Below are positions 17,488 to 43,143 of a stretch of 64,000 nucleotides of DNA, one piece after another; position 1 is the first letter of the stretch; each line of letters starts with the position of its first letter. This DNA is from Arthrobacter sp. MMS18-M83. Lineage in GTDB: Bacteria; Actinomycetota; Actinomycetes; Actinomycetales; Micrococcaceae. The translations under genes were made by a program, and so were the position numbers. A model generated the notes under the pieces. The model saw nothing but the letters and a program-made list of their open reading frames with translations, was not told where the DNA came from and searched no databases. Where the stretch lies: the NCBI RefSeq assembly GCF_026683955.1, contig NZ_CP113343.1, positions 2,852,001 to 2,916,000 on the forward strand. Reading direction: 5' to 3'.

Positions 17488-17588
17488 GCAGCAAGCATGG
17501 GGGATGCCACCCCGTCTTGGCTAGTCAAAAAGTTGGGAGATTAGAGAATTTGTAAAGTCGCTGTTGTGGGCGTAAAAGTGGCCGTTGC

Positions 17589-20140: not shown

Positions 20141-20200
20141 GGAGTGAGCATACTCCCGCGCCGAGAGCGCGGACAGTATTCCCTGCGGACGGCCCGCGGA

Positions 20201-20294
20201 CGCCTCAACTTCCTACCGCTTTTGACCTACGTTGACGTCACCGATGGGGTTTTCCGGGGAAACGGAACCGGAAAACTGGTAGGAAGTTGAGGCG
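20201..20294. repeat. 94-bp inverted-repeat element
   Basis: Perfect 17-bp arms (20201-20217 and 20278-20294; arm CGCCTCAACTTCCTACC) enclose a 60-base centre. That centre has further symmetry (GTTTTCCGGGGAAAC) and a TGACGTCA palindrome. It lies between the ribokinase stop and the ABC ATPase start and does not encode protein. A structured transcript end between operons or a small mobile repeat are both possible. Confidence 0.75.
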
Positions 20295-20301
20295 GGCTAA
20301 G

Positions 20302-26890: not shown

Positions 26891-28144
26891 CTATGTGGAC
26901 AACTGCCCGAGTTTGGCCGCCTTCACCAGGAGAAACTGCCGCTCTTGCAAGCTTCCCGTCATCTTTGCCGCGGCAAGAAAACACTCCCGGGCACCGGCAA
27001 GCTCTCCGGACATTTCGAGCAAATGCCCGCGAACGGCGTCGAGCCTGTGCCACCTTTTAAGCTCCACATCAAGCCCATCCAGTAGCTCAAGGGCCGCGCG
27101 CGGTCCTTCCACCATTGCCACCGCAACGGCGCGGTTGAGCGTCACAACCGGGCTTGGGGCCATGGCTTCGAGAACCTTATACAAAGCGAGGATCTGCGGC
27201 CAATCGGTCTGGTCCGCGGAGGCCGCCTCGGCATGGACCGCCGCGATTGCGGCCTGCAGCTGGTAGGGCCCCGGACGACCAACGCCCAGCACCGTTGACA
27301 AGAGTTCAAGGCCCTCGGCGATCTGCGCCGTGTCCCACAGCCCGCGGTCCTGCTCGGCGAGCGGCACCAGCATGCCGTCCGGCAGTGACCTCGCCCGGCG
27401 CCGCGCATCGGTGAGGAGCATGAGGGCAAGAAGTCCGCCCACCTCGAGCTCGCCCGGGAGTAGCCCCCACAGGAGCCGCGTAAGACGGATGGCCTCCGCG
27501 GTGAGGTCTTCGAGTTGCATGGATGGGCCGGAACCCGCCGCGTAGCCTTCGTTGAAGATCAAGTACAGGACGTGGAGTACGACGCCGAGCCGCGCCTTTC
27601 GCTCGCCAGTTTTCGGGAGCCCGAAATGGGCTCCGGCCTTCTTGATGCCCTGCTTCGCCCGGCTGATCCTCTGGCCCATGGTGCTTTCAGGGACGAGGAA
27701 CGCGCTGGCGATTTCCGCCGTCGTGAGCCCTCCAACTGCCCTCAATGTCAGTGCCAGCTGCGAGGGTGCCGAGAGAGCGGGGTGGCAACAGAGGAAGAGG
27801 AGGGTGAGGGTATCTTCTGCAAATCCGTCCGCGTCGCCAACTGAAGAGGATTCCTCGCCGGGCGGCGGCTCCAACGCTGCGGCGCGTTCTTCGCGAGCCT
27901 GCCGGGCACTTTCACTGCGCCAGTGGTCCACCAGGCGACGCGTGGCGACGGTGAGCAACCACGCCTTGGGGCTGTCCGGGACACCGGACGCGGGCCATTG
28001 CAACGCGGCCTCGAGCAGAGCCTCCTGGACGGCGTCCTCGCACTCTGCAAATTGCCCGTGCCTGCGCACGAGCACGCCAAGGACCTGCGGCGCGAGCGCG
28101 CGCAGCAGGTCCTCGAGAATGGGTTCCCCGGAAGGCCCGGCCAA
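26891..28144 (-). CDS. ECF42-type RNA polymerase sigma factor
   Basis: 417 residues. The N-terminal ~170 hold sigma region 2 (CEDAVQEALLEAALQWPASG) and region 4 (LTTAEIASAFLVPESTMGQR). The C-terminal ~240 residues are the TPR-like DUF6596 extension that defines the ECF42 group. These sigma factors have no classical anti-sigma factor and are coupled to DGPF-domain proteins, as here: a DGPF gene lies directly upstream. The start appears to be TTG 28144, with GGAGG in the end of the DGPF gene eight bases before it. Confidence 0.9.
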   Translation of the reverse strand: MAGPSGEPILEDLLRALAPQVLGVLVRRHGQFAECEDAVQEALLEAALQWPASGVPDSPKAWLLTVATRRLVDHWRSESARQAREERAAALEPPPGEESSSVGDADGFAEDTLTLLFLCCHPALSAPSQLALTLRAVGGLTTAEIASAFLVPESTMGQRISRAKQGIKKAGAHFGLPKTGERKARLGVVLHVLYLIFNEGYAAGSGPSMQLEDLTAEAIRLTRLLWGLLPGELEVGGLLALMLLTDARRRARSLPDGMLVPLAEQDRGLWDTAQIAEGLELLSTVLGVGRPGPYQLQAAIAAVHAEAASADQTDWPQILALYKVLEAMAPSPVVTLNRAVAVAMVEGPRAALELLDGLDVELKRWHRLDAVRGHLLEMSGELAGARECFLAAAKMTGSLQERQFLLVKAAKLGQLST

Positions 28145-29436: not shown

Positions 29437-29457
29437 AGGGAAACGCTACCCCGATGG

Positions 29458-29516
29458 AGTCGAAAGCGAGCGGAACTTGGGCGAAACCTTGTTTTCGACT
29501 GCCCGCCTGCCACAAT
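29458..29516 (+). promoter_or_regulatory. Inverted repeat and candidate promoter of the membrane-protein gene
   Basis: Perfect 8-bp arms AGTCGAAA and TTTCGACT (29458-29465, 29493-29500) lie between two divergent genes. On the plus strand TTGTTT (29489-29494) and CACAAT (29511-29516), 16 bp apart, could be -35 and -10 elements, with the -10 six bases before ATG 29523 (leaderless). Confidence 0.35.
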
Positions 29517-29522
29517 GGAACC

Positions 29523-30365
29523 ATGGCCGCAGCGAGGTGGGGTCAGGGGTCGCAGCTGGGGCGCGGATCGGGCCTCGGTGGGCTGCGTGACGGACCATCC
29601 CCGGACGCCTTGCGTCGCCCGTTCTTCATTGCGGCAGTGGCCGTCTTCGCCGTCGTCGTCCTGGCTGAAATCGGCCTTTCGATCCTCCTTGGCGGGACCG
29701 CCGCCGAGCCCGTTTCCCCCGACCAAGCGGACAAGCTCGGCGTTCCTATCGACGTCTTCCTCAAAACCCAACGCGCGTCAGCTGCGCCGCCGGGCGCGGG
29801 AATCGGTTTTCTTGCGTTCCTGGACGGGCTGTTGCTGTTCACCGTGGTGATGCTCGGGCTCAGCCTGATCATGGACCTCAGGGTTTACGGGCGGGTTCAA
29901 GGGATCGTCACCTTGATTGTCACGTTTCTCTGGGTGGTGGGCGCGTTCTTCACAGCCCTTTTGGCGTTGGCAAAGCTGTTCCTGATGTTCGGCCTGTTCG
30001 TGGCTGCACCCTTTGGGACCATTGCCTACCTGGCGTTATGGGGGAGTTTTCCCACGAGCCAGGCGGCGGCCATCCTTGCCCTCCTCCTGCTGCTGAAGAT
30101 CGTTTTCGCAGTGTTGCTGGTCCTGAGCCAGCCGAAATTCCTGAAGGTCACCGGGCTTGTGGTGCTGCTTCTAGTATCAGTCCTCCTGCAGCTTATTCTT
30201 GGCCTCATTCACGGATTCCTCCCCGGCCCGCTCGTGTCAATCGGGGATCAGTTCTGGGCGCTCATCACGGTGGTGGTGGCCTTGGTGTGGGCACTCATCA
30301 TGCTCATAGGGTCCGTCCCGGCCATCATCAACGCCCTGCGGGTCAGCGGCTCGGCAGGCGACTGA
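29523..30365 (+). CDS. Hypothetical multi-pass membrane protein
   Basis: About 280 residues with roughly seven transmembrane helices, an N-terminal Gly-rich cytosolic stretch and a short loop after helix 1. No family recognised and no conserved charged residues in the membrane that would suggest a transporter. ATG 29523 avoids the in-frame extension to 29454, which runs through the promoter region. Followed by a repeat-rich gap. Confidence 0.7.
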   Translation: MAAARWGQGSQLGRGSGLGGLRDGPSPDALRRPFFIAAVAVFAVVVLAEIGLSILLGGTAAEPVSPDQADKLGVPIDVFLKTQRASAAPPGAGIGFLAFLDGLLLFTVVMLGLSLIMDLRVYGRVQGIVTLIVTFLWVVGAFFTALLALAKLFLMFGLFVAAPFGTIAYLALWGSFPTSQAAAILALLLLLKIVFAVLLVLSQPKFLKVTGLVVLLLVSVLLQLILGLIHGFLPGPLVSIGDQFWALITVVVALVWALIMLIGSVPAIINALRVSGSAGD

Positions 30366-30509: not shown

Positions 30510-31751
30510 CTACTCCTCCGGTCGGTTCCGATAGGCGGCCAGGAACGTGGCGATCCTGCGCACGGCCTCTTCGATCTCCCGGACGGACGGCAGGATGACA
30601 AAGCGGAAGTGGTCCGGGGTTGGCCAGTTGAAGGCCGAGCCGTGGGAGACCAGGATCTTCTGGTCCTGCAGGAGTTCCAGGACGAATTTCTCGTCGCTCT
30701 CGATCGGGTAGATCTCAGGATCCAGCCGCGGGAACAAATACATGGCCCCGGCCGCCGGAACGCAACTCACCCCCGGGATGGCCGTCAGCAGCTTCAACGC
30801 CAGATCCCGTTGTTCCCGGAGCCGGCCGCCCGGCCTGATGAGTTCCTCGATGCTCTGGTAGCCGCCCAAGCAGGTTTGGATGGCGTGCTGCGCTGGAACG
30901 TTGGAGCACAATCGGAGGGACGCCAGCAACTCCAACGCTTCACGGTAATCGGCGGTGGCAGCGTGCGGACCGGTCACTGCGACCCATCCCGCACGGTACC
31001 CGGGCATCCGATAGGCCTTGGAGAGGCCGCTGAAGGTCAGGACGCAGATATCGTCGGCCACGGAAGCGGTGTGGATGTGCTGGGCGTCCTCGTAGCGGAT
31101 CTTTTCGTAGATCTCGTCAGAGAAGAGGACCAGATCGTGTTTGCGTGCCAGCGCCGCGAACTGCTCCAGGATGTGGCGAGGGTATACCGCGCCGGTGGGG
31201 TTGTTCGGGTTGATGATGACGATGGCCTTGGTGCGCTTAGTGATCTTGGCCTCGACATCGGACATGTCCGGCCACCAGTTTTGGCCCTCATCACAGAGAT
31301 AGTGCACCGGATTACCGCCAGTGAGGGTCACGGTGGCCGTCCATAGCGGATAGTCCGGCGCGGGGATGAGGACCTCGTCGCCGTTCTCCAAGAAGGCCTG
31401 CAGCGTCATGGAGATCAGTTCGCTCACACCGTTGCCGATGAAGATGTCCTCGACGCCGATATTCATCAGGTTTTTGGTCTGGTAGTACTGCGAAATCGCT
31501 GTCCGCGCCGTGAAAATCCCCTTGGAATCGCTATACCCCTGGGCGCCGCGCAGATGGTGGATCATGTCCACCACAACGGACTCGGGCGCTTCCAGTCCGA
31601 ACGGTGCGGTGTCACCAAGGTTCATCTTGAGGATGCGGTGCCCTTCGGCCTCCATGGTCTTGGCCGCTTGGAGGATGGGGCCACGGAGTTCATAACGGAC
31701 GTTCTGTAGTTTGCTGGAGTGCTGCATCGGACGCATGGTTGATCTTTTCAT
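30510..31751 (-). CDS. AlaA-like pyridoxal-phosphate aminotransferase
   Basis: About 413 residues of class I aminotransferases. INPNNPTGAVY binds cofactor and substrate, and TFSGLSKAYRMPGYRAGW holds the Schiff-base lysine. The N-terminal KLQNVRYELRGPIL is typical of AlaA-type alanine transaminases. It would interconvert pyruvate and alanine using glutamate. GTG 31772 and ATG 31736 are in-frame alternatives; none has a clear ribosome-binding site. It follows the injection-system operon on the same strand but is unlikely to be part of it. Confidence 0.85.
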   Translation of the reverse strand: MKRSTMRPMQHSSKLQNVRYELRGPILQAAKTMEAEGHRILKMNLGDTAPFGLEAPESVVVDMIHHLRGAQGYSDSKGIFTARTAISQYYQTKNLMNIGVEDIFIGNGVSELISMTLQAFLENGDEVLIPAPDYPLWTATVTLTGGNPVHYLCDEGQNWWPDMSDVEAKITKRTKAIVIINPNNPTGAVYPRHILEQFAALARKHDLVLFSDEIYEKIRYEDAQHIHTASVADDICVLTFSGLSKAYRMPGYRAGWVAVTGPHAATADYREALELLASLRLCSNVPAQHAIQTCLGGYQSIEELIRPGGRLREQRDLALKLLTAIPGVSCVPAAGAMYLFPRLDPEIYPIESDEKFVLELLQDQKILVSHGSAFNWPTPDHFRFVILPSVREIEEAVRRIATFLAAYRNRPEE

Positions 31752-31799
31752 GGGCGGCACTGTTTTCGGCACCGGATTACACGCAGCATCAAGTACGCC

Positions 31800-32729
31800 C
31801 TACTGCTTGACCGCGCAGATCTGCGGCTGGACTTTGCAGATGTTGATCGGATTCGGCTCGATGATGATGCCCCGGATTTCTGTGCGGACTAGTACCAAGG
31901 CGTTTTGGTTCACTTTGCTTCCGACATCGGGGTTGACGCCCACCACAACGCAGCTTTGCAGGAATCCTCCGGGTGAGGCCTGGCACATGGAGCCCTGGGT
32001 GAAATCCAGCTGGATTTTCGCATTCTGGAAGGCTGTCCGTGCATCTTCGATGTGCAAGCCCAGGACCGCGGGCACCACCGATTTCACCGGTGTCGCGATC
32101 TCCAGGTTGACCATGGAACCGCGCCCGGCGGACTTGCCGCCGTCGGGCGTTTGCTTCACCACGGTGCCTGCCGTCTGCCCGCTCTCTGTTTCCGTGGTGC
32201 TCACCTTGAACCCGGCGTCCTCAAGCGTTTTTACCGCTTCCGCCTGCGGCCTGCTTTCGACCGAGGGAACCGTTGCGTCCTTGAGAAGGAACCAAATCAC
32301 CCCACCAACCGCCGCCAACAGCACGACGCCGCCGATGATCACCCACAGCCACGGGAATCCAGGCCTCGGCTTGGTCGGTTCGGCGGGCTTGGTGACGGTC
32401 AGCGTGACCACGTGGGCCTGGTCGGCATAGTCCTCAGGGGCGTCGTCGGCAGAATAGGCGATCAGTTTCACGGGATATGAGCCGGGTGCGGCACCGGTGG
32501 TGTCGAAATTGATCAGGTATTGCTCCGTTGCTCCGGCGGCGATGGTCCGCAATGGAGTGGGGATGGTGGTGTACGTCGGCGACGGCGGTGTGCTCTCCAT
32601 GCCGGGGAAGGCCCCCAACACCACGCGTTCGGGGCCGGGAGCTCCGTTGGTCACAGACGCCGTGAGGGAGCCTTTGCAATCCTTGAGTTCCACCGTGGGG
32701 GAACTCAGCGTCATGGTGATGGTGCTCAT
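31800..32729 (-). CDS. Ig-like / transmembrane / two-PASTA protein, last gene of the injection-system operon
   Basis: 309 residues without a signal peptide. Residues ~1-112 look like an Ig/CARDB-like beta domain; 127-149 is one transmembrane helix (WLWVIIGGVVLLAAVGGVIW); 152-213 and 216-290 are PASTA repeats, the fold that binds peptidoglycan and beta-lactams in PknB. By analogy with PknB the N-terminal domain would face the cytosol and the PASTA domains the wall. At the end of a contractile-injection operon it could tether the particle to membrane and wall, a role like the one proposed for CisA in Streptomyces. That is inference; no similarity to CisA was tested. Confidence 0.8.
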   Translation of the reverse strand: MSTITMTLSSPTVELKDCKGSLTASVTNGAPGPERVVLGAFPGMESTPPSPTYTTIPTPLRTIAAGATEQYLINFDTTGAAPGSYPVKLIAYSADDAPEDYADQAHVVTLTVTKPAEPTKPRPGFPWLWVIIGGVVLLAAVGGVIWFLLKDATVPSVESRPQAEAVKTLEDAGFKVSTTETESGQTAGTVVKQTPDGGKSAGRGSMVNLEIATPVKSVVPAVLGLHIEDARTAFQNAKIQLDFTQGSMCQASPGGFLQSCVVVGVNPDVGSKVNQNALVLVRTEIRGIIIEPNPINICKVQPQICAVKQ

Positions 32730-32777
32730 GCGACAACCGCCTTTCGGGCAATGGCAATGGAAAAGGTGACAGCCACT

Positions 32778-33251
32778 TCATCCGCCTGCTTCCAGGAGCT
32801 TCAGCGCACACGTGCCAACAACGCGGCACGTGATCCCGAGCTGACCTCCGGAGGTCCCGAAGGTCAGGCTGGCGGTGTCGCCTGCGGAGATATCCTGCTC
32901 TGTTCGCGTGCCTTCCACGACGAGGGTCACGGTGACTGCTTGCTGGGGAGCCAGCCGGGCACGCTTGGTGGGGCTGCCCAGATCGAACAGGCCCCCGAAT
33001 TTCCTGACCTCGAAGATGCAGCTTCCCGCCACCAGCAGCTGTGTTGCCGCCGCGGAGCATTGGCCGCCCGGGCCCACAAGGTCGGAGGCCTTGAGTGTCC
33101 CCCCTGCAGCAGCCTCCGAGAACCCCGCCTGCCAGCTGGCCGCCGCGTTGTTGTTCCCGCCGCCGCAACTGACGCCGAAAACCAGCACGAGCACGGCGAT
33201 GACGCCACATACGACCACCGCGATAATGGGCTTCCGGTTCTCATCGTTCAC
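32778..33251 (-). CDS. Small membrane-anchored or lipoprotein-like component of the injection-system operon
   Basis: 157 residues from GTG 33251, which overlaps the stop of the gpI-like gene (GTGA). A hydrophobic segment at ~8-27 (IAVVVCGVIAVLVLVFGVSC) ends in Cys, but the positions before it fit a lipobox poorly, so a membrane anchor is equally likely. The outer part has three further Cys (GGQCSAA, GSCIF, ITCRVVGTCAL) and a beta-rich look. No family known. Its place between baseplate and PASTA genes suggests a membrane-side partner of the particle. Confidence 0.7.
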   Translation of the reverse strand: MNDENRKPIIAVVVCGVIAVLVLVFGVSCGGGNNNAAASWQAGFSEAAAGGTLKASDLVGPGGQCSAAATQLLVAGSCIFEVRKFGGLFDLGSPTKRARLAPQQAVTVTLVVEGTRTEQDISAGDTASLTFGTSGGQLGITCRVVGTCALKLLEAGG

Positions 33252-33784
33252 GAGTCCATCACCGCGATCTCGTCCGTGACGTGGGCAGGCTTGATGCCCT
33301 TGACGATTCTGCGAATCAGCTCCACTTGCCCAGCGGCAGCCGCGGGGACCAGAACCTTGATGTGGAACTCGCCCGGGACGGATTCGACCCCGAACCCCGC
33401 GATCCCGGTGGCCAGCTGCAGGAAGCGGGTGAGACCGTCCACGGTGCCCCTGCGCGCGGACAGGGAGGCCGCGCACGCAATCAGGTCCCGTTGCCGTGCC
33501 ACCGGGACTCCTGCCGCCGTGGAGTCCACGGATTCCGGGCCCGGTAGGGTCAGCCAGTCCAGGTCCACCCAGCGCGACAGAAACGGAATGAACGACGACG
33601 GCGAGCGGCCGGGATCCGGAACGGTGTGTATGCGGTCCAAGACGTCCCGGACGGGCTGTTGCATGTCCTCCGCCACGGCGATGAGGGCCTGCAGCGGCGT
33701 GCTGGTTTCAGCCGCCACTTGGTAGATCTCGGGCAGGACCTTCAGCATCGGAGAGTTACGCAGCACGGGTTCAACCATTGCCAT
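33248..33784 (-). CDS. Phage tail protein I-like baseplate component
   Basis: 178 residues. SPMLKVLPEIYQ at the start and the later RQRDLIACAASLSARRGTVD / LTRFLQLATGI are characteristic of gpI-type tail proteins found in eCIS baseplates. The usual partner is baseplate J, encoded directly upstream with a 14-bp overlap. ATG 33778 (MVEPVLRN) is an alternative start. Confidence 0.82.
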   Translation of the reverse strand: MAMVEPVLRNSPMLKVLPEIYQVAAETSTPLQALIAVAEDMQQPVRDVLDRIHTVPDPGRSPSSFIPFLSRWVDLDWLTLPGPESVDSTAAGVPVARQRDLIACAASLSARRGTVDGLTRFLQLATGIAGFGVESVPGEFHIKVLVPAAAAGQVELIRRIVKGIKPAHVTDEIAVMDS

Positions 33785-36398
33785 GCACCACTTCGATCCG
33801 GTGGTCGCCCGAGCAGAACAGCCACGTGTTCGGGAGGGTCACTACGTCGTCAACCATCCGCCGCGTGCAGCTCGCCCAAGAAACGGCGTTGTCCGTGCTC
33901 CGGTAGATCCCCTTGGGGCCGGCTGCGAGCACAAGCTGCGCACCGTCGTCGCGCACTACGCCGGACACCGCGCGGACAGGCTCGAAACGCGTCCTATCCC
34001 GCAAGGGCAGGTTGCAGTTCACGTCGGGCACGCTCCACTGCGCGGAAGCCTGGCCGAGCTGCAGGCGCAGCACGCCTCCGCTCTGGGTGGCGGCATAAGC
34101 GGCATTGCCCATCACATGGACACCCCAACAACTGCCACCGGTCCAACCCGCGTTGAACTGTTCCCAGGAAGCCATCAGGGCGGCGTCGAACTGGGTGCGG
34201 GCGAGTTCGTCGATCTTCAGGCGCAGGCAGCCCGTCCCTGTACCCTCCGGCACGGAACGGCCGAGCCAGACATAGCTTGCGCCGCCGTCGTACTGAATCG
34301 TCATGCAGCGGATGTCCTCGCCCGCAGATTTGATCTGATGGAAGCTGCCGGCCGCTCCCGCGTCGGGGGAGAGCCAAATGCCCGCGGAGGCTTCGGCAGC
34401 CACCACCACACCGGTGCGTCCGCGTACGTCCACGAGTGCGTCCACCGCGTAGAAGCCGCGGTCCGGCTGGCTCGCGTCCACCACGTTCTGGACCGGGATG
34501 GCCCCCTCGCCCATCGGCAGCTCATAGAGCCCGTGCTCTCCAGCGAGCAGCAGCACCGAGACTCCCTGCCGGTCCACCCAGCACAAGTCCGCGACGACGA
34601 AGCCCAGTTCCGCGGCCCGACGCCAGGATTCGCCGAGGTCCTCGCTGACGTAGATGCGCGAGCCCGTGGGGGTCACGGTGCTGACTGCCACCATGCCGGG
34701 ATGGTGTCCGGGACCGAAACCGCCAGGGCCAAATCCACCGGTGCCGAAGCGGCCCGGAGCCGGGGAACGGAAAGGCGCGATGGACCTCACCGTTTCACTG
34801 GCCGCCTCCGAGCCGAATTCGGCGCAGGCCTCCCAGCCTTCGCCCGCGTTGGTAGTGCGGAAAAGCGTGCTGTCCTGGGCGACAAACCAGGTGTTGTCCT
34901 GTCCCTCGGCCTGCACCAGCGCCAAAGCATCGGTGTCCGGAACCTTGTCCACTTCGAGCCGCACCCGGTCCACGTACTGGACTCCGGGTTCCGCTTCCTC
35001 CATCGCACGGTAGAGGTTGGAGACGCGCAACGGCTTGCCGAAGCCCGAACCGTAGTTGGAAGAGCTCGAGCTCAGGGGACTGATTCCTTCCGCGAGCCGG
35101 CCCACGATCCTGGATTTCACGGCCTCGGCGTCCTCATCGGGCCGGACTACGATCCTGGCGTCCACAAGCACTTGTTTATAGAGGCCCCAGCGGACCACGG
35201 GCTCTGCCCCCACGGTGGAGCGGCGGCGCAAGTACTGTTCAACCTCGAGCCGGACGCTTTCACGTGCCTGGGCGTTCAGCTCGGCGGCGCGGACAGGACC
35301 CGGCGCACCCGGCACGAACGGCACCAGCACTACCTCCACCTCGCCGGGTTTGGCGAAAGCCCAGATGTCCCGCCGCGTGAACGCTCGCGCCCTCGCGATG
35401 CCACCATGGCGCATGGCCAGGACCTCGTAGTCGCGGACAGTGACGGCCCTGTCCCTGGCCTGGAAATCCTGCGGTGCCCGGCGGAGCGCATTCTCCAGCG
35501 ATTCACCGTCGCGCCCTCCCGTGGCAGCTTCCGGGTTGCTGACCTTCAGCCCCGGGATCGGGGTGCGCATCATCGTCAGCTGGCCCGCTCCGACGTTGCC
35601 ACGCAGGCCTCCGCCGCCGCGGTACCAAGCGCGCACCTCGGCCCCCGGACCCGGAACAACTGCCGTCCGCGCTACGGACTCCTCGTCCCACCATGCGAAC
35701 ATCACGACGCCGGCACTCCGGTCGATCCGGACCGGCGCCTCATCCGGACCGGCGTCTGCGAAGGCCTCAACTTCGCGGCAAAACCGGAAAGGCTTGCCAT
35801 CTACCATGACGGCTTCGCCGCTGCTCAACTGGGTGCCCGCGGGGACTTCTATGGCGATGGACAGGCCCGCCCCGGAGACGATGGGCGCGTTAGGAATGAC
35901 GAAGCTCTGGCCCGGGCGTCCGGTTCCGACGCCGATGGGGACGGCGTCGTACAAGGTGACATCGGCTGCCGGGACCTGCACACTGGACTCGCCCGCAGCA
36001 AGGACGGCCGCCGTCGTCGTCGTGAATACCGGTTGAGGGGCGCCGGGCACGCCGGGCGGGCAGCTGACCTGAGTCCCGCGGGGGATGCGGATGTCCTGGC
36101 TGCCGGTACTGCTTCCGGCCGACGATCGGGTGAACTCGAGGACGGTTTCGGCAGTGCTGGGCGGGTACAGGCTGGTGCCGAGAAGGTTCAAGTAGACCGC
36201 ATACAGCTTTTCCGGCACCCGGTTGAGCCGATACATCAGGGTGTCCGTGAGGTAAGCGAAAGCCTCGAGGATGGTGATGCCGGGATCATGGACGGAGAGG
36301 TCCGTCCAATCCGGGGTAATCTGCTGGATACGCTCGCGGGCACCGGCCACGAGGTCCGCGAAGCTGCGATCGTCAAGATTCGGCACGGGGATACTCAT
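33771..36398 (-). CDS. Baseplate J-like protein fused to a BNR-type propeller
   Basis: 875 residues. The first ~480 are a baseplate J/Afp11-like protein: DLSVHDPGITILEAFAYLTD at the start is diagnostic of eCIS and T6SS-like baseplate wedges. From ~485 to the end there is a run of BNR/Ycf48-like repeats (TLFRTTNAGEGWEAC, RIYVSEDLGESWRRA, GIYRSTDNAVSWASC), predicting a beta-propeller. The known J family ends without such a domain, so this is an added module, possibly for binding a target surface or decorating the baseplate. ATG 36398 overlaps the gp25 stop by 4 bp. Confidence 0.85.
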   Translation of the reverse strand: MSIPVPNLDDRSFADLVAGARERIQQITPDWTDLSVHDPGITILEAFAYLTDTLMYRLNRVPEKLYAVYLNLLGTSLYPPSTAETVLEFTRSSAGSSTGSQDIRIPRGTQVSCPPGVPGAPQPVFTTTTAAVLAAGESSVQVPAADVTLYDAVPIGVGTGRPGQSFVIPNAPIVSGAGLSIAIEVPAGTQLSSGEAVMVDGKPFRFCREVEAFADAGPDEAPVRIDRSAGVVMFAWWDEESVARTAVVPGPGAEVRAWYRGGGGLRGNVGAGQLTMMRTPIPGLKVSNPEAATGGRDGESLENALRRAPQDFQARDRAVTVRDYEVLAMRHGGIARARAFTRRDIWAFAKPGEVEVVLVPFVPGAPGPVRAAELNAQARESVRLEVEQYLRRRSTVGAEPVVRWGLYKQVLVDARIVVRPDEDAEAVKSRIVGRLAEGISPLSSSSSNYGSGFGKPLRVSNLYRAMEEAEPGVQYVDRVRLEVDKVPDTDALALVQAEGQDNTWFVAQDSTLFRTTNAGEGWEACAEFGSEAASETVRSIAPFRSPAPGRFGTGGFGPGGFGPGHHPGMVAVSTVTPTGSRIYVSEDLGESWRRAAELGFVVADLCWVDRQGVSVLLLAGEHGLYELPMGEGAIPVQNVVDASQPDRGFYAVDALVDVRGRTGVVVAAEASAGIWLSPDAGAAGSFHQIKSAGEDIRCMTIQYDGGASYVWLGRSVPEGTGTGCLRLKIDELARTQFDAALMASWEQFNAGWTGGSCWGVHVMGNAAYAATQSGGVLRLQLGQASAQWSVPDVNCNLPLRDRTRFEPVRAVSGVVRDDGAQLVLAAGPKGIYRSTDNAVSWASCTRRMVDDVVTLPNTWLFCSGDHRIEVVHGNG

Positions 36399-36829
36399 GC
36401 TGCACCTCCGGAATCGACAGGCAGGGCGATGGCGAGCTGGTCTTCGAGCTGGGTGGAACGGACCCGGTATCGCAACCGGACCTCCAGCACTTCAGGACTT
36501 TCGGGGGACCGGGAGGCATCCAAGGACAGGACCGTGATCCGGGGCTCCCATTGCTCCACAGCCCGGGCAACATAATGGATGGCCAAGCCCGCCGTGGTGT
36601 CATCCGCGGGCGCGAACGCGAGCCGGAACAGATGGCAGCCATACGTGGGTCGGTTGACGCGCTCGCCGGGCCTGGTGCTCAGCAGTAGGAGGAGCGCCTG
36701 GCGCACGGAAGTTGCATCCGTGACGGTGGCGAGCCGTCCGTCGGGGGTCAGCCGCAAGCCGGGAAGGCCGGTGGCGGCATCGAAATCCGGGTGGACGAAG
36801 GCCACCGACTTGTATCTGGGGATGCTCAC
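36395..36829 (-). CDS. GPW/gp25-like baseplate wedge protein (Afp9/Pvc9 type)
   Basis: 144 residues with the gp25 lysozyme-like wedge fold. VRQALLLLLSTRPGERVNRP followed by YGCHLFRLAFAP matches the R-P-G-E-R-x-x-x-P-x-x-G motif of the family. It links the baseplate hub to the sheath in contractile tails. Start is a GTG at 36829; it ends in a 4-bp overlap with the J gene. Confidence 0.9.
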   Translation of the reverse strand: MSIPRYKSVAFVHPDFDAATGLPGLRLTPDGRLATVTDATSVRQALLLLLSTRPGERVNRPTYGCHLFRLAFAPADDTTAGLAIHYVARAVEQWEPRITVLSLDASRSPESPEVLEVRLRYRVRSTQLEDQLAIALPVDSGGAA

Positions 36830-36842
36830 GGCTGGCCGCCTC

Positions 36843-37184
36843 TCATGACCCCGCCGCCACGAATTCCTGGCCCGGCCTCCGGACCGTGTACTTCACCGCA
36901 CCGGGCGGAGTGCCGTCCGTGTAGCCCTCCACAGTGTCCAGGCAGACCTTCTTGCCGCCGATCCGGACAAAACTCGAATAGCCCTTGATCACAGGCAGGG
37001 TCTTGGTGCAGGGCTTGATGTTGAGGCCGACGTTCGGGCACATGCTGATGTCGCGTCCCTGGGGATCGTTGTCGACCAAAACCGGCGAATCGGCAACTCG
37101 AACCCACTGCTGGGAAGGCAGGTTTTCCACCTTGCCGTCGTGCCCGCAGCGCAGGATGGCTTCCTTGACCAGGAACTTCGGCAT
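36843..37184 (-). CDS. PAAR-like spike-tip protein (Afp10-like)
   Basis: 113 residues. Cys and His residues (ILRCGHDG, DISMCPN, IKPCTKT, KKVCLDT) and the small beta-rich sequence suggest a DUF4280/PAAR-like cone that caps the spike and may hold a metal. Position directly after the VgrG-like gene, with ATG overlapping its stop by one base (TGATG), supports this. A strict PAAR motif is not obvious, so the assignment rests partly on context. Confidence 0.72.
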   Translation of the reverse strand: MPKFLVKEAILRCGHDGKVENLPSQQWVRVADSPVLVDNDPQGRDISMCPNVGLNIKPCTKTLPVIKGYSSFVRIGGKKVCLDTVEGYTDGTPPGAVKYTVRRPGQEFVAAGS

Positions 37185-38704
37185 CAGGCCTCCTCGAAAT
37201 CGACGGTCTTGGCTCGGATCTTCATGGCCTTGCCCGGCGCCTCCAGGAGCAGGTCCGTAGCCGAGGTGATGCGGAGCTTCTCCGGCCCGAGTTCCACCGT
37301 GGAGCCGTGCCCGTCTGTGAAACTGATGGTGCGGCTACCGCCGTCGAGCACTATCTGCTGGCCGTCAGCGCTCCGGAAGGTGTAGCGGCTGTCCCGCGGT
37401 GTGTTCGCTGTGTTGTCCGGCGTCTGCTCCCTGCCGTAGAGCCCGCCCAGAATGATGGCCTGCGCCGGATCCGTGGCCGGCAGCAGGACCAGCACGGTGT
37501 CCCCCGGGGCGGGTGGCACCACGAAACCTTTCCCCGCTCCGGCTCCCATTGTGAGGACCGGCGCCCAGGCTGATTCCAGCGGCGGATACGCGGGGAGCCG
37601 GACCCGTGCCCGGCCCCGTCCTTCCGGATCCTCGACGTCCAGCACGGTGCCCAAGGTGAAGACGTCGGGCCGCCGGGCGGTCGGGGGTTCCGGGGGCCGT
37701 GTGGTGATGGTGGTTTCGTAGCCCGTGCCGTCCAGCTTGTGAGTGGCGGCGGCAATTGCGTAGGTGCCTTCGAGCGACGTCGCGAGTCCGCGCACGCGAA
37801 CCCGGCGCCCGGCGCGGAGGCGGGGATCGCCGTCGGCCACGAAGACGGCGATGACTTGCCCCGCCATCCGGACGTCCAGTTCCGCCTGGGCCAGGCCATG
37901 GGCCAAGGATTCGGAGGCGAAGGACTCGTTGTCGCGCAGGAGCTCGCCACCAGCGCCAACACTGGCCAGCGCAGGGTCTGCGGAGACATTCGCTTTCGCG
38001 TCGCTGTTCCCTGCGGAGGCCTGCTGCACCGAGGCGTCGTCGGACCGCCAGCCCGAGGTCTTGGCACCGAGATACGCCGGCTCCTGGCTCAACTCCACCT
38101 CGGCCGAATGCAGGCTGCTGCCCAATTCCAACTCAATCGGTTCTCCTTCGCCGGACAAATCGGTCAGCCTCAGGGCATCGCCATCCGCCACTGGATACGC
38201 ACCCACCCGTGCGCTCTGCTCCACCAAGAGACTCAAGTCCGATCGTGCACATTGGTACACCTCACCGAGCCGGGTTGCCCCGCCCACCACTTGCAGACCC
38301 GTGCCCTCCGTGAGCGTTCGGGCCAACCCGGCGAGGTCGACGTCGCTGTGCAGCCGGGTGAACTGGCGTTTCCTCAACCGGTGCAGGGCATCGTAGGCGC
38401 GGACTCGCACTTCCTGTGAAAGATCCGCTCCGTAACTGTGCTCCACCACCGTCACTTCGCCCACGAAGAGCGGAGTGCGTTGGCCCCCCAATTCCACGCG
38501 CAGGGCGTCCCCAGGTGCAGGGTCCACTCCGCCGCGGGCCGTAGCCGAGCGTCCGGGACCGGGGCGCCAGCTAATGAGGCACTGGGCTGGCCTGGCGAGC
38601 GAGCTGAGAACCTGCACGGAGATGATCGCCGCCGTTTCGGCCGCGGAGAGGCGTCGCCGCCCGAGGGTGACGATGAGTTCCGGGAGGCCTTGGAGCTGCC
38701 TCAT
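37184..38704 (-). CDS. VgrG/gp5-like spike protein (Afp8-like)
   Basis: 506 residues. The first ~330 form a phage GPD/VgrG-like hub (LRVELGGQRTPLFVGEVTVV, ATRLGEVYQCARSDLSLLVE). An OB-fold gp5 domain follows (VLDVEDPEGRGRARVRLPAY, PGDTVLVLLP), and the end forms a beta-strand tail (STVELGPEKLRITSATDLLL). It is the piercing spike of a contractile system. ATG 38704 is used; the in-frame extension to 39085 runs through the preceding gene. Confidence 0.88.
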   Translation of the reverse strand: MRQLQGLPELIVTLGRRRLSAAETAAIISVQVLSSLARPAQCLISWRPGPGRSATARGGVDPAPGDALRVELGGQRTPLFVGEVTVVEHSYGADLSQEVRVRAYDALHRLRKRQFTRLHSDVDLAGLARTLTEGTGLQVVGGATRLGEVYQCARSDLSLLVEQSARVGAYPVADGDALRLTDLSGEGEPIELELGSSLHSAEVELSQEPAYLGAKTSGWRSDDASVQQASAGNSDAKANVSADPALASVGAGGELLRDNESFASESLAHGLAQAELDVRMAGQVIAVFVADGDPRLRAGRRVRVRGLATSLEGTYAIAAATHKLDGTGYETTITTRPPEPPTARRPDVFTLGTVLDVEDPEGRGRARVRLPAYPPLESAWAPVLTMGAGAGKGFVVPPAPGDTVLVLLPATDPAQAIILGGLYGREQTPDNTANTPRDSRYTFRSADGQQIVLDGGSRTISFTDGHGSTVELGPEKLRITSATDLLLEAPGKAMKIRAKTVDFEEA

Positions 38705-38729
38705 CGGGCTGAGCCCTTCACGGGGCGCC

Positions 38730-39488
38730 TCATGGGGCCTCGCCAACCGGGGGAACGGCGAGGGGGCCGTTGAAATGGGCGGGATCGTCGATGTTGTTGT
38801 ACTCCAGCAGCAACTTCCACAGCAACGGCGTGCCAAAGGCGGCCAGGCTGAGGCGCCCCAACTCACCCGGCGGGACCTCCGGAAGCAGTTCGCCGCCGTC
38901 GGGCGCTGTTGCGTCCCTGTCCGTGCTGCCGTCGCCGCCCACCGCGAGCGTATCCACGGGCGGCGCCGTGAGATCAACGGCCGGGAGCCGCTGGGCGAGC
39001 TCGTAATTCTCGCCCCCTTCCTCGTCAGCGCTTTGCCCGACCCGCACGAACACCATGCGCATCCACGAGCGCAAGGGGGAGCCATCCGGCGAAAAGCGGT
39101 CGAAGCGCTCCGCCACCTCGGTCACGATCCCGGGCACGTTCCATGCGCGTCCCCACACGAATCGCACTGACGGCGGCCGGCGTTGCCTCTCCACCTCGGC
39201 CGAGTTCTCCGCGAGCGCCCAGATGGGCCGCGTCATCTGGCGCACGTCCTGGACATGGAGCGACGCCGGCGCGAGGTCGACGTCGAACAGGAGATCCAGG
39301 CGAAGCTCGGTGTGTCCGCCTCCCGTGAAGAGCAAGGGATCGTCCGCGAGGCCCGTTCCCGTCAGCTTGCCGCCCGCCGAACGCCGGGGCTCAACACCGG
39401 CCGTCCGTGACATCACCACCGTCTCCGGATTGAGCAGGCAGCCAAGGTGTTCCCCGGTGTCCTCGATCAGGAAAGCGACGCGTTCCAT
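38730..39488 (-). CDS. Contractile-injection tube/adaptor protein with LysM-like C-terminus (Afp7-like)
   Basis: 252 residues. The start (MERVAFLIEDTGEHLGCLLN) and LRLDLLFDVDL are typical of the CIS_tube family that joins the inner tube to the spike. The C-terminal ~50 residues (LGRLSLAAFGTPLLWKLLLE, then YNNIDDPAHF) are a LysM-like segment as in Afp7/Pvc7. It is flanked by the spike gene and the proline-rich gene, both on the same strand. Confidence 0.85.
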   Translation of the reverse strand: MERVAFLIEDTGEHLGCLLNPETVVMSRTAGVEPRRSAGGKLTGTGLADDPLLFTGGGHTELRLDLLFDVDLAPASLHVQDVRQMTRPIWALAENSAEVERQRRPPSVRFVWGRAWNVPGIVTEVAERFDRFSPDGSPLRSWMRMVFVRVGQSADEEGGENYELAQRLPAVDLTAPPVDTLAVGGDGSTDRDATAPDGGELLPEVPPGELGRLSLAAFGTPLLWKLLLEYNNIDDPAHFNGPLAVPPVGEAP

Positions 39489-39489
39489 G

Positions 39490-40674
39490 TCAGATCGCCA
39501 ACTGTTCGCGGTTCAGCCGGACGGCGCGGGCCATCGCTGCTGTTGCTGCCGCCGATGTTTGCTCCGCGGGCTGCGGTGCCGGGCGTGGGGCCAGTTCCGG
39601 CCAGTTTCCGGTTATTGGTGCGGCGGGGATGCGTGCCAGTGTTGCGCTTGGGTGGCCTTGATGTTCCGCGTTCTTGAAGCCGACGACGACGGCGGGAGCC
39701 GCTTCCGATGGCTGGTGCAGGGGTGTTGTGGGCGGCTGAGGGGTGGTTGCGTTTGGTGGGCTTGCGTTTGCTGGGGGAGCCGGGGCTGCGCTCGGTGGGC
39801 TTGTTTCGATGGCCGTGGCTGGGGGTCCTGGGTGATGTGTTGCTTGCCCAGGGGCCGGCCGGGTTGTCGCCTTGGCTGGACGTGTCCCGCGGAGTCTCAG
39901 GATGTGGCGTGGTTGCCGGGCATCCGGGGATGCGGCTTCCGAGGAGGGGATCGCCAGGGTTTCGACCGAATCCTTTGAATCTTTGTCCAGGGGTGTGCGC
40001 ACGGAGGAAAAGGAGGCCGTCGCCGGTTCCGGGGCGCGGACCGGCGGGGAGCTAGCGGCGTCAGCACTCTGGAGGCGTTTGCCCAGCGTTAGCCGGGGGA
40101 GGAAAGACGACTTTGGGGCGGTTGGGGCTTCGGAGACGGTCACGGCGTCGGCGGGAGAGGGAGCGCCAGGCGCCGGACCGTCGTCGGAGACTGGATTTTC
40201 GCGGGTGTACCGCCGGGGCTCGGGCTCAAGGATCCGGTCCTGGATCGAGCCCGGACTACCGGTTTCCCTGACGACACTCGGGTGGTATTCGTCCGGATGT
40301 GAGCGAGCGTTGGGGATGGACGGGGGTATATCTGCGGGAGGGTTGGGGTCGGAGGGGGGTATATGTGAGCGAGGGTCGGGAGGGGACGGGACCAGGCCGG
40401 CGTCGCGCAACAACCGGACCCAATGCTCCGGTGCGCCGGACATGTCCAGTCTCCGTACCGGCGTCGGGCCATCGGTTCCAGCACCGCCCTCGGTTCCAAC
40501 CCCGCGCCGCATTCCAACTATTCCACCAGGCCGACCACCACTCCGGGAGCCGGGCGCGCCGTCAGGGTGCAGCGGCGGTTCCAGCCTCTCCGCGAGTTCC
40601 CGGAGCCGCCGCGCCACCGAACGACGCCACGGGTTCCGGGGCCACCTCCCATCAAGCCACGGGAGCGCGGGCAT
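39490..40674 (-). CDS. Proline-rich hypothetical protein of the injection-system operon
   Basis: About 394 residues from ATG 40674, which overlaps the tube stop by 23 bp. The first ~45 residues are basic and helical (RRSVARRLRELAERLE); the remainder is a low-complexity Pro/Ala/Ser/Thr region with an 11-residue repeat (IPPSDPNPPAD, IPPSIPNARSH) encoded by 33-bp DNA repeats. The last ~30 residues are again helical. In related clusters this position holds the small Afp6-type protein or nothing, so it may be a linker, length-control or cargo-related protein. It lacks the long coiled coil of a tape measure. Confidence 0.65.
   Translation of the reverse strand: MPALPWLDGRWPRNPWRRSVARRLRELAERLEPPLHPDGAPGSRSGGRPGGIVGMRRGVGTEGGAGTDGPTPVRRLDMSGAPEHWVRLLRDAGLVPSPPDPRSHIPPSDPNPPADIPPSIPNARSHPDEYHPSVVRETGSPGSIQDRILEPEPRRYTRENPVSDDGPAPGAPSPADAVTVSEAPTAPKSSFLPRLTLGKRLQSADAASSPPVRAPEPATASFSSVRTPLDKDSKDSVETLAIPSSEAASPDARQPRHILRLRGTRPAKATTRPAPGQATHHPGPPATAIETSPPSAAPAPPANASPPNATTPQPPTTPLHQPSEAAPAVVVGFKNAEHQGHPSATLARIPAAPITGNWPELAPRPAPQPAEQTSAAATAAMARAVRLNREQLAI
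40299..40390. repeat. 33-bp tandem repeats within the proline-rich gene
   Basis: Two full units (40299-40331, 40332-40364) and a partial third (40365-40390). Units begin GTGAGCGAG(C/G)GTTGGGG and end GGGTATAT. On the coding strand they give an 11-residue Pro-rich repeat. They resemble the intergenic 32-bp repeats at 30423-30499. Confidence 0.85.
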
Positions 40675-41143
40675 CGTCGAGCTCCAAGCGGTCGTACGCG
40701 ATGCTGAGGGATTCGATCGCCAAGTCCTTGCCGAGGGCATCCAACGGGGCTCCGAACCAGTCGCACGGCCAGGCGCCCAGCAAGTTCCAGCGGCGGACCT
40801 CCACCGAGCCGGCGTCGTTGAGCATGGCAATGGAGACGTTGCGCCGTTCCACATGCCCATCGACGGCCTTGAACAGCCATTGGAGCATTTCCGTGGAATC
40901 GGTGAGTCCGTAGCGGAGCGTCACCGGGGTGTACTCCACCTGGCCGGGGATGACCCGGACCGTGCTGTTCTCGCCGCCGGAGCGGTACAAGATGCGGTCG
41001 ATTTTCAGCCCGAGCCCTTCAACCTTGGTGAAGTGTCCCTGGACCACGCCTTGGATGACGAGTTTGAAGTTGTAGGCGCGGTACGGATCCACGACGTTCC
41101 CGGGCTGGGCAGCAGGGGCGGGGGTGCTTGGCTGCGTGCTCAT
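40652..41143 (-). CDS. Contractile-tail tube protein (gp19/Afp1-like)
   Basis: 163 residues. AYNFKLVIQGVVQGHFTKVE followed by GLGLKI is the T4 gp19 / Hcp-like tube signature, and VTLRYGLTDSTEMLQWLFKA is its central motif. It stacks as hexamer rings inside the sheath. Only one tube gene is present, while Afp and PVC clusters carry two. ATG 41143 has GGAG six bases upstream and starts one base after the sheath stop. Confidence 0.92.
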   Translation of the reverse strand: MSTQPSTPAPAAQPGNVVDPYRAYNFKLVIQGVVQGHFTKVEGLGLKIDRILYRSGGENSTVRVIPGQVEYTPVTLRYGLTDSTEMLQWLFKAVDGHVERRNVSIAMLNDAGSVEVRRWNLLGAWPCDWFGAPLDALGKDLAIESLSIAYDRLELDDARAPVA

Positions 41144-41144
41144 T

Positions 41145-42434
41145 TCAGGCTCCTGCACTCTCTGTCTCGCTGGTGTTGTCGGCCGATTGCATGAGCTTGA
41201 AGATCACGAATTCGGCGGGTTTGACGGGTGCGATGCCGATCAGGGTGACAACCTGCCCGGCATCGCGGACTTCGGGCGGGTTGGTTTCTTCGTCGCATTT
41301 CACAAAGAAGGCCTGTTGAGGAGTAGTCCCCAACAGCGCCCCGTCCCGCCACACATTGGTCAGGAATGCGCCGATGTCGCGGCGGATGGACTTCCACAAC
41401 GTGTGGTCATTGGGTTCAAAGACCACCCAGCGCGTTCCGTCGGCTACGGATTCCTTGATCATGTTGGTCAGCCGGCGGACGTTGACGTACCGGTATTCGC
41501 TGGCCTCGGGGGCCTTGGTCCGGGCACCCCAGATGCGGATGCCCTCGCCGGGGAAATAGCGGATGCAGTTCACCCCGGCGGGGTTCAGCACTTCCTGTTC
41601 GCCGCGGCTGACGCGCCGGACCAGGTCCAACGCACCTTGGATGGGTTCGTTCGCGGGAGCCTTGTGGACACCGCGCGTCGCGTCGACGCGTGCCCAGACC
41701 CCTGCAACATGGCCCGACGGCGGTTGGGTCACTTTCTTGCCGGAGACCGGATCGATCATGACAATCCAAGGGAAGTACAGGGCGGTGTAGCCGCCGGGGG
41801 ATTGGGGTGCGCCGATCGCGTCCTCGCCAGTTGCCCGCTCGGCGTTCGGCTTGTCGGTGCCGGTCTTGGGGTCGTCAGACTTGTCCGCGTCGCCTCCGTC
41901 GTCCGCTTTCACGCCGGTGGACTTTGGCGCGTCCGGCACGCCGGAAGTCGCCGCCCGGGTGAGGGCTCCGACGTCGTCCACCTTCTCCGGGGTGTCCATG
42001 ATCGCCACGCGGTCCTGCCGCAAGGGATGCTCCACATGGGCCTGCAGCGCCGCGTACGCTTCGGCGTCGGCGTATCCGGGGGCGGCCACCATGGAGATGT
42101 CGTCGATCGCTTCGAACAACGTCACTCCGCTGGGCTTTGCGGCGGTGCCGGTGAGACTGCCGCCGGTACCGATGTTGACCACATAGCAGCGGCTGCCACC
42201 GTTGGCGAAGAATCCGAAGACGGCGTTGGACAGGGGTGTTCCCTGCGTGGACTTGCCGACGTATTGGTCCACGAACTGGGTCCAGTTGTCCAGAACCCTT
42301 GCTTCATCCGGAAAGGCCAGGGGGTCGGGGGAAACTCCTACAAAACCGGCAATGCTGGTACTGACCTGGCCGATCGATCGTGCACCGCTGGGCACTTCCT
42401 GTACATACACTCCCGGCGCTTGGTAATTCGCCAT
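41145..42434 (-). CDS. Contractile-tail sheath protein
   Basis: About 429 residues. The start MANYQAPGVYVQEVPSGARS is the classic tail-sheath N-terminus; the C-terminal half (NPAGVNCIRYFPGEGIRIWG, YRYVNVRRLTNMIKESV, FEPNDHTLWKSIRRDI) is the conserved sheath core. Residues ~150-230 contain an acidic Asp/Lys-rich insert, likely surface exposed. Only one sheath gene is present where Afp has three. ATG 42434 is supported by AAGGGAG upstream; the in-frame extension to 42527 is rejected. Confidence 0.95.
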   Translation of the reverse strand: MANYQAPGVYVQEVPSGARSIGQVSTSIAGFVGVSPDPLAFPDEARVLDNWTQFVDQYVGKSTQGTPLSNAVFGFFANGGSRCYVVNIGTGGSLTGTAAKPSGVTLFEAIDDISMVAAPGYADAEAYAALQAHVEHPLRQDRVAIMDTPEKVDDVGALTRAATSGVPDAPKSTGVKADDGGDADKSDDPKTGTDKPNAERATGEDAIGAPQSPGGYTALYFPWIVMIDPVSGKKVTQPPSGHVAGVWARVDATRGVHKAPANEPIQGALDLVRRVSRGEQEVLNPAGVNCIRYFPGEGIRIWGARTKAPEASEYRYVNVRRLTNMIKESVADGTRWVVFEPNDHTLWKSIRRDIGAFLTNVWRDGALLGTTPQQAFFVKCDEETNPPEVRDAGQVVTLIGIAPVKPAEFVIFKLMQSADNTSETESAGA

Positions 42435-42447
42435 AGTGTGCTCCCTT

Positions 42448-43143
42448 TCACTCCCACCGGATGATGACCGGCAGGCTGCTCGTGTCTGCTGAGACTTCCC
42501 GTTCAGTGCCGCGGACTGCCACGACAAAGTGCTGGAGTTCGTCTGCCGAGGCCAGGACCTCGAAATGGCCGGTGGGATCGCTCACGACGGCGGCGGCGGA
42601 CGAATGCGGGCGGATGTAGGCATCTGGGATGCCTTTGTTGTGGACGTCCACCAGCCGGCCGTGGATCCGGCGGGCCACTGTGGTGGAGGCGATGAGGGGT
42701 TCGGTGACCGGCGGGCCGAGGGGCTCGTCGAGACGTATCCCCACGGGGATGCGCACCAGGAAACCGAGGCCTTGGCGGATACCGGCATCGTATTCGTCCG
42801 GCTGGAATTCGCCACTGGAGACCACCGAGTACTGGGTGTTTTGCTCGAGGGCCAGCAGGAGTTTCTCCATGTTGTCCAGTTGCGTTGGGCCGTGGCACTC
42901 CACGGCCACTTTGAGCTCGAGGTCCAGCAGTGGGCCTTCACGTCGGGAGCGGCCCACCCTGTTCATAGCGACGGCGTGGACCGTGACAGGTGCCTCGGGG
43001 GATTGGCCGGTAGGTGGTTCGGAGCCGTCATCGAAGCGGACACGCTCGGGCGAAACGGCGTCAGAAAGTACCCCGAGGAGCTCGGTCAACGATGATCGCA
43101 CAACACCCACGGTGACACCCCAGTCCACGAAGTGGTCCAGCAC
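42448..43143 (-). CDS. DUF4255 tail-terminator/cap protein (Pvc16/Afp16-like)
   Basis: 231 residues. The N-terminal ~170 (VGVVRSSLTELLGVL, NMEKLLLALEQNTQYSVV, LGFLVRIPVGIRL) match the DUF4255 domain of Afp16/Pvc16, which caps the far end of the particle. The last ~60 residues (RRIHGRLVDVHNKGIPDAYI) form a carboxypeptidase-regulatory-like beta domain. It is the first gene of the operon. GTG 43143 is the longest start; GTG 43110 with GGGG upstream is a good alternative. Confidence 0.88.
   Translation of the reverse strand: MLDHFVDWGVTVGVVRSSLTELLGVLSDAVSPERVRFDDGSEPPTGQSPEAPVTVHAVAMNRVGRSRREGPLLDLELKVAVECHGPTQLDNMEKLLLALEQNTQYSVVSSGEFQPDEYDAGIRQGLGFLVRIPVGIRLDEPLGPPVTEPLIASTTVARRIHGRLVDVHNKGIPDAYIRPHSSAAAVVSDPTGHFEVLASADELQHFVVAVRGTEREVSADTSSLPVIIRWE

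Follow-up and report, generated by a model that had tools for sequence, protein, structure and literature searches.

A compact contractile injection system subfamily with an unusual membrane and cell-wall module in Arthrobacter sp. MMS18-M83

Among the closest described systems to the locus reported here are contractile injection systems (CIS) of Streptomyces. Streptomyces CIS clusters are described as having no conventional fibre and no typical tape measure and as encoding two tubes (PMC10066040), and the CIS of S. coelicolor needs a bitopic protein, CisA, encoded right after the baseplate genes (PMC12237407). In S. coelicolor, proteins that have one helix and a similar N-terminus but vary in their C-terminal domains have been called effectors, and lowered the viability of E. 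coli (PMC10066040). In archaea, a CIS resembling the type VI secretion system (T6SS) is bound to the cytoplasmic membrane and has a putative anchor (PMC11566945), and some extracellular CIS (eCIS) loci yield no fibre gene (PMC12923769). Here we describe a locus within a 64,000-nucleotide stretch of the genome of Arthrobacter sp. MMS18-M83 (contig NZ_CP113343.1, positions 2,852,001 to 2,916,000; hereafter the window), in which a run of 12 genes on the minus strand at positions 31800-43143 encodes CIS core parts and a thirteenth, linked gene lies beyond that range. As a genomic unit, a CIS subfamily marked by an unusual set of membrane and cell-wall proteins has good support; from its gene content we infer docking and outward firing of the machine.

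The twelve same-strand CIS genes had been proposed in a preliminary description made from the sequence, and were confirmed by reading frames and Pfam scans. Matches above the curated cut-offs were obtained in the window proteins for Phage_sheath_1 with Phage_sheath_1C, Phage_T4_gp19, CIS_tube (Afp7), Phage_base_V, GPW_gp25, Baseplate_J and Tail_P2_I. Sheath, tube, spike, gp25, J and gpI are all present, which places the locus among CIS in the broad sense. The genes, with window positions, are as follows.

42448..43143, minus strand: g01, cap-like protein of the Pvc16_N/DUF4255-type family with a C-terminal carboxypeptidase-regulatory-like domain (231 aa; iterated hidden Markov models (HMMs) and orthologues)
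41145..42434, minus strand: g02, contractile sheath (429 aa; Pfam)
40652..41143, minus strand: g03, inner tube (163 aa; PF06841, TIGR02241, PDB matches including Pvc1 and Afp1)
39490 to ~40674, minus strand: g04, protein rich in proline and probably disordered (~394 aa; start placed from the sequence)
38730..39488, minus strand: g05, Afp7/CIS_tube tube-to-hub adaptor (252 aa; PF19266)
37184..38704, minus strand: g06, VgrG-like spike (506 aa; PF04717; VgrG_rel under its curated cut-off)
36843..37184, minus strand: g07, candidate PAAR-like spike tip (113 aa; assigned by its place in the cluster and its conservation across the lineage)
36395..36829, minus strand: g08, gp25-like baseplate wedge (144 aa; PF04965)
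33771..36398, minus strand: g09, baseplate J (Cis11) with a C-terminal beta-propeller, probably seven-bladed (875 aa)
33248..33784, minus strand: g10, gpI/Cis12-like wedge (178 aa; PF09684, TIGR02242)
32778..33251, minus strand: g11, small bitopic protein with an N-terminal membrane helix (157 aa; hydropathy and alignment)
31800..32729, minus strand: g12, PapD-like domain, membrane helix and two PASTA domains (309 aa; Pfam, PDB, AlphaFold2 and fold matches)
29454..30365 (open reading frame, ORF), plus strand: g13, polytopic membrane protein with 7 hydrophobic segments (similarity to genes near other clusters)

The start of the sheath gene was corrected to near 42434, and the gap between tube and Afp7 was found to be filled by the proline-rich g04. 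The ORF at 32434-33210 looks spurious, the real gene being g11. An aminotransferase gene (30510-31772) sits between the cluster and the convergent g13.

The same compact set recurs well beyond this genome, in agreement with the earlier suggestion of a minimal lineage. A sheath search across 150 genomes of the genus gave matches in 31; 18 of these hold this cluster, and in the other 13 the sheath is more distant. Ten of those 13 were examined (11 clusters; G015, G028 and G105 excluded), and all carried other CIS. Scanning named genomes with an Afp7 alignment yielded 72 loci from seven phyla, several of them on contigs of metagenome-assembled genomes (MAGs). They include the actinobacterial families Micrococcaceae, Microbacteriaceae, Propionibacteriaceae and Micromonosporaceae, together with Chloroflexota, Myxococcota, Thermodesulfobacteriota, Acidobacteriota, Planctomycetota and Pseudomonadota. 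Within the reach of the contigs the genes run in the order sheath, tube, variable gene, Afp7, VgrG, PAAR-like, gp25, J and gpI. This order was read for 59 of the 72 loci, L064-L076 being assessed by gene presence, and by order where equal to fetched genomes. The exceptions are L131, in which no PAAR-like gene was detected, and L130, which has about 4 kb between tube and Afp7. The arrangement is repeated on plasmids of Deinococcus and Rhodovulum, where the baseplate genes are followed by an annotated PASTA protein; both loci match the g12 and g13 profiles, and that of Deinococcus also those of g01 and g11. In a phylum-wide draw, Afp7 was matched in 12 of 396 genomes, three of them, including the source genome, with E below 1e-50, which indicates a thinly spread lineage. 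In a quick-search sheath tree, in which several long branches were flagged and which has no named IId reference row, a branch with SH-aLRT 99 separated all 65 lineage rows from type B and type C; 17 lineage loci, L083 and seven loci with no sheath match are excluded from it.

What sets the lineage apart is found beyond gpI. Fibre genes usually lie after the baseplate genes; here three conserved membrane proteins are placed there, which points to an intracellular, membrane-docked machine. Among the 61 loci with at least 4 kb downstream of gpI, the N-terminal half of g12 was found in 60, g11 in 51 and g13 in 51. Across the 150 genomes of the genus, the N-terminal half of g12 matches exactly the 18 that bear the cluster. 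Strong matches to g13 and to Afp7 fall in the same 18, with weak matches (1e-4 to 1e-3) to g13 in 12 others and one weak match to Afp7. Given that the genomes are related, this co-occurrence shows linkage and not 18 independent events. The weak g13 relatives, of about 30% identity in the 12 genomes that lack the cluster (for example G057:C1:2768902-2769321), perhaps represent a wider family from which g13 was drawn. The gene itself was first seen downstream of clusters in Myxococcus, Hamadaea and Ardenticatenaceae and was then traced to the window by similarity. Its frame is interrupted by stops in six of 13 loci with a match, always within the first 40 aligned positions, which indicates a later start and not a broken gene; the true start is probably nearer the first helix than the ORF start.

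The g12 protein consists of a PapD-like domain (residues ~1-115), one membrane helix (~127-149) and two PASTA domains, the latter scoring 65.6 bits against a Pfam cut-off of 23.2, with PknB PASTA among the PDB and fold matches. Mean pairwise identity within the genus is 80% over residues 1-112 and 78% in the helix region, and 59% over residues 152-309 (alignment A1). Alignments A1, A2, A3 and A4 hold 15, 13, 16 and 13 of the 18 same-genus copies, respectively, the broken L044 copy being in none; the wider g12 alignment A5 holds 43 of 73 copies, that of the window included. The ectodomains of 43 scanned members differ, with PASTA in 21, TIG in four, Big_2 in one and META in one. Counts of lysine and arginine (KR) favour a cytoplasmic N-terminus in 29 of 43 g12 members, and the conserved cysteines that follow the membrane helix in both g11 and g12 fit an outside location. 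The protein is a candidate anchor between the CIS and the cell wall. Two tandem g12-like genes were seen in L035, L036, L037, L039, L069-L071, L078, L082, L098, L128 and L130, in some loci with differing C-terminal parts. In the Chloroflexota locus L133, a g12-like protein of more than 1,400 residues with a laminin-G-like domain is encoded after gpI (16478-20725).

The absence of a CIS-type ATPase, reported in the preliminary description, held up at both scales examined. In the source genome, a type B ATPase query matched four AAA proteins, none of CIS type: they align over the AAA domain, outside the long N-terminal part of the query, and NCBIfam profiles identify a CDC48-like protein, a proteasome ATPase, a GNAT-AAA protein and FtsH. 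Two queries gave no match within the sequenced flanks of 90 lineage loci, made up of the 72 from the named-genome scan, the window and 17 others (78 distinct, 12 pairs being the same locus). Of 11 clusters of the genus that belong to other CIS, nine were matched by the same queries, including the two from which the queries came; the negatives are the fetched pieces L057 and L058. The flanks are short, with medians of 6.6 and 4.5 kb beyond sheath and gpI in the 75 loci that have both, so a distant ATPase gene could exist in other genomes. Upstream of the Deinococcus plasmid locus lies a small annotated AAA ATPase, which neither query matched. Whole-genome searches likewise confirmed a single sheath gene and a single tube gene, and the alternative of absent parts encoded at other sites of the genome was thus not upheld for the ATPase, a second sheath or a second tube. 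For the fibre, the CIS13 profile matched nothing in the genome, a weak negative given that its control matched nowhere either; no fibre family was found among the scanned proteins of the cluster and neighbourhood. Family scans of the cluster proteins found no tape-measure family, with no genome-wide search made. By published sorting rules, an ATPase without plug, fibre and tape denotes a T6SS, and fibre and tape without ATPase a phage or tailocin (PMC12210884); a set lacking all four belongs to neither class. No family of TssJLM, TssK or ClpV (T6SS i-iii) was among the matches of the scanned proteins, a result obtained with no dedicated genome search. The label of eCIS type, given to the locus at first, is made doubtful by the three linked membrane proteins.

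Two core assignments of the preliminary description lean on orthologues or on gene position. The Pvc16/DUF4255 cap family gave no match in family scans of the window protein g01 itself, and a PDB profile search with g01 was also negative. Of eight g01 orthologues from other taxa, three passed the Pvc16_N cut-off of 27 bits (27.5, 28 and 28), three fell under it (26.7, 24.8 and 23.3) and two had no match; some passed the cut-off of CarboxypepD_reg. Iterated HMMs tied g01 to the cap family in all 65 loci with enough sequence, the window included. For the tip, no PAAR family match was found in g07 or in three orthologues scanned, and g07 is a candidate PAAR-like protein from its position and conservation in the lineage. 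The best solved relative of the sheath by sequence is chain 8bky_A, sequence-identical to S. coelicolor entry 9gtp, and that of J is an S. coelicolor CIS chain of 652 residues. The C-terminal part of the window's J, at about residues 482-847, is a propeller, probably seven-bladed (alignment A6 holds 29 of 68 J proteins, the window included).

The variable gene between tube and Afp7 deserves separate mention. The tape measure of contractile phages and the plug of eCIS sit at the tube-adaptor place. In the frames of the genus, g04 has conserved ends and a variable middle, and its length, counted from the tube stop, ranges from 310 to 434 residues in 17 of 18 copies. Of 58 loci (window included), 53 allowed the choice of a frame, with a loosely defined C-terminal motif in 44 and a P-x-H-W motif in 23, other phyla among them; these counts lean upward because the choice of frame partly used the motifs. 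Since a conserved protein occupies the place of the phage tape measure, the statement that there is no tape measure is perhaps incomplete. We regard g04 as a candidate ruler, tape or plug, the role of ruler being a guess.

A prophage tail remnant, discounted earlier from gene content, was also rejected here. The neighbouring genes scanned are non-phage and include an aminotransferase and an epimerase, the former adjoining the cluster in 15 of 17 same-genus relatives fetched. Phage relatives are at most partial: J gave 11 partial matches to phage records, of which the ten listed have 22-30% identity at no more than 46% coverage, and a scan of viral contigs with Afp7 confirmed no relative. No capsid or lysis gene was recognised among the scanned window proteins. 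Decay in a single genome was rejected as well, the cluster genes aligning as open frames in 17 of the 18 same-genus copies (the source genome and 16 of the 17 fetched), the exception being the frameshifted copy of G131. In L044 and L083, both from Arthrobacter sp. Hiyo8, frameshifts break many of the cluster genes, apparently through sequencing error or decay. An anti-phage role of g12 was discarded, as its PADLOC matches (PD-T4-6) lie mainly over the PASTA region and belong to models that we take to be PASTA kinases. Elsewhere in the window, a sigma-70-family factor with a DUF6596 domain (26891-28144) has no visible tie to the cluster.

The explanation towards which we lean, with some reserve, is a widely but thinly spread CIS subfamily that is fired from inside the producer while docked to its own membrane and wall. 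As their homology shows, cap, sheath, tube, hub, spike and baseplate form a short contractile syringe, in which the membrane module may stand in for fibre, helical tape measure and CIS ATPase. The cytosolic PapD-like domain of g12 would dock the baseplate, most likely through the propeller of J, its helix would cross the membrane, and the outward PASTA domains, whose folds are predicted, may hold or read peptidoglycan. The bitopic g11 and the polytopic g13 could complete the docking site, and g04, as a disordered ruler, is the best candidate for setting length. An envelope signal would then cause the sheath to contract, pushing the tube outward across the membrane and wall of its producer; the shot would either hit a neighbour, as with a T6SS, or kill the producer, as in Streptomyces. 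Such a machine would be comparable to the CisA-dependent Streptomyces CIS or the archaeal T6SS with other anchors. The membrane and wall-binding proteins that accompany the machine, and the recurrence of the set in distantly related bacteria, suggest that it is fired from inside the cell and not released. More ambitiously, the lineage may be a phylum-crossing CIS class that has given up fibre, ATPase and helical tape for a wall-linked membrane dock, interchangeable outer sensor domains and a proline-rich disordered ruler. Shared by Gram-positive and Gram-negative bacteria and shooting through the wall of its producer, it would amount to an independently designed T6SS; this broader proposal is tentative, and we would sooner doubt it than adopt it. 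Several observations weigh against the favoured explanation. Locus L115 has downstream room and none of g11, g12 and g13, and of the 61 loci with room ten gave no g11 and ten no g13. The KR counts favour the opposite g12 topology in five of 43 members and tie in nine, and several of the non-actinobacterial loci are MAG contigs. Free cytoplasmic CIS can lack fibres too, and g12 could be cargo, similar S. coelicolor proteins having been called effectors (PMC10066040).

The alternative that shares much with docked firing is a cytoplasmic CIS of the Streptomyces type, with free particles, stress-induced death of the producer and g12 as a late trigger like CisA. Of the solved structures, those of the S. 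coelicolor CIS are indeed the closest in sequence to the sheath and J, and that system has no conventional fibre or typical tape and needs a bitopic protein encoded after the baseplate (PMC10066040, PMC12237407). Against this, there is a single tube gene here as opposed to the two in Streptomyces, g12 has no detectable homology to the type B protein at the CisA position (one sequence was compared, which makes the negative weak), and three conserved membrane proteins together with PASTA domains suggest a standing attachment; we hold this alternative to be unlikely, if worth serious attention.

Were g12 and its paralogues cargo instead, the PapD-like domain would be a loading tag and the C-terminal domains payloads, which would suit the conserved N-terminus, the variable C-terminus, the tandem copies in some loci and the lowered E. 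coli viability reported for comparable S. coelicolor proteins (PMC10066040). Yet the membrane helix belongs to the conserved part of g12, its presence in 60 of 61 loci with room is unusual for cargo, and no enzyme or toxin is among the C-terminal families that can be named (PF26182 and PF26918 aside; many members match nothing), making this improbable. Least credible, and in our judgement very improbable, is a true extracellular CIS released by lysis whose J propeller binds the target in place of fibres: a propeller is a plausible binding domain and the fibre gene is not yielded by some eCIS loci (PMC12923769), but the constant linkage with membrane proteins and the lack of a recognised lysis gene among the scanned proteins argue otherwise.

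A docked CIS of this kind touches two open questions: how CIS without fibres engage their membrane, and whether a T6SS-like weapon exists in Gram-positive bacteria. The lineage provides a compact, co-conserved gene set in soil bacteria with a concrete anchor candidate, the outer part of which has a known peptidoglycan-binding fold. It would show that CIS can work without an AAA ATPase, and offers in g04 a candidate non-helical ruler. In the published text compared, with the dbeCIS tables outside the comparison, no description of this subfamily or of a CIS with a PASTA domain was found.

Among known systems, the S. coelicolor CIS (subtype IId) is alike in having the closest solved sheath and J by sequence, in having no conventional fibre or typical tape measure, and in encoding a bitopic protein directly after the baseplate genes. 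In the quick tree the lineage sheaths form their own group apart from type B. Streptomyces CIS clusters carry an ATPase, and none was found here. The J of the lineage carries a propeller, in contrast to the 652-residue S. coelicolor chain, and two further membrane proteins (g11 and g13) are encoded. Unlike CisA, with its largely unstructured N-terminus, g12 has an ordered PapD-like domain and a PASTA ectodomain. One tube gene is present here, where two are reported for Streptomyces (PMC10066040). In a type B Arthrobacter cluster, the protein at the CisA position (L052:13307-14590) has a zinc-ribbon-like start and a discoid glycan-binding match of 33.9 bits (cut-off 38), and is presumed to be CisA-like. 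A kinship of g12 with this protein was rejected for lack of homology, in a comparison with this one sequence. If the L052 protein is CisA-like, two unrelated outer-binding membrane proteins share the same operon place in one genus.

The eCIS of the Afp/PVC type share the core sheath, tube, Afp7, VgrG, gp25, J and cap families with this lineage, which differs in its single sheath and tube, its lack of a recognised fibre, tape measure or ATPase, and the membrane module encoded instead. The T6SS-like CIS of Halogeometricum borinquense is membrane-bound; its anchor is predicted to have six helices, with a cytoplasmic domain some 150 residues long (PMC11566945). A figure legend of the same source spells out ATPase, implying one in the cluster scheme, and none was found here. 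The Anabaena thylakoid CIS (tCIS) is also membrane-attached and intracellular (PMC12237407, PMC11566945); it attaches via an extension of the baseplate, whereas in this lineage, where docking is proposed from gene content, separate membrane proteins are encoded.

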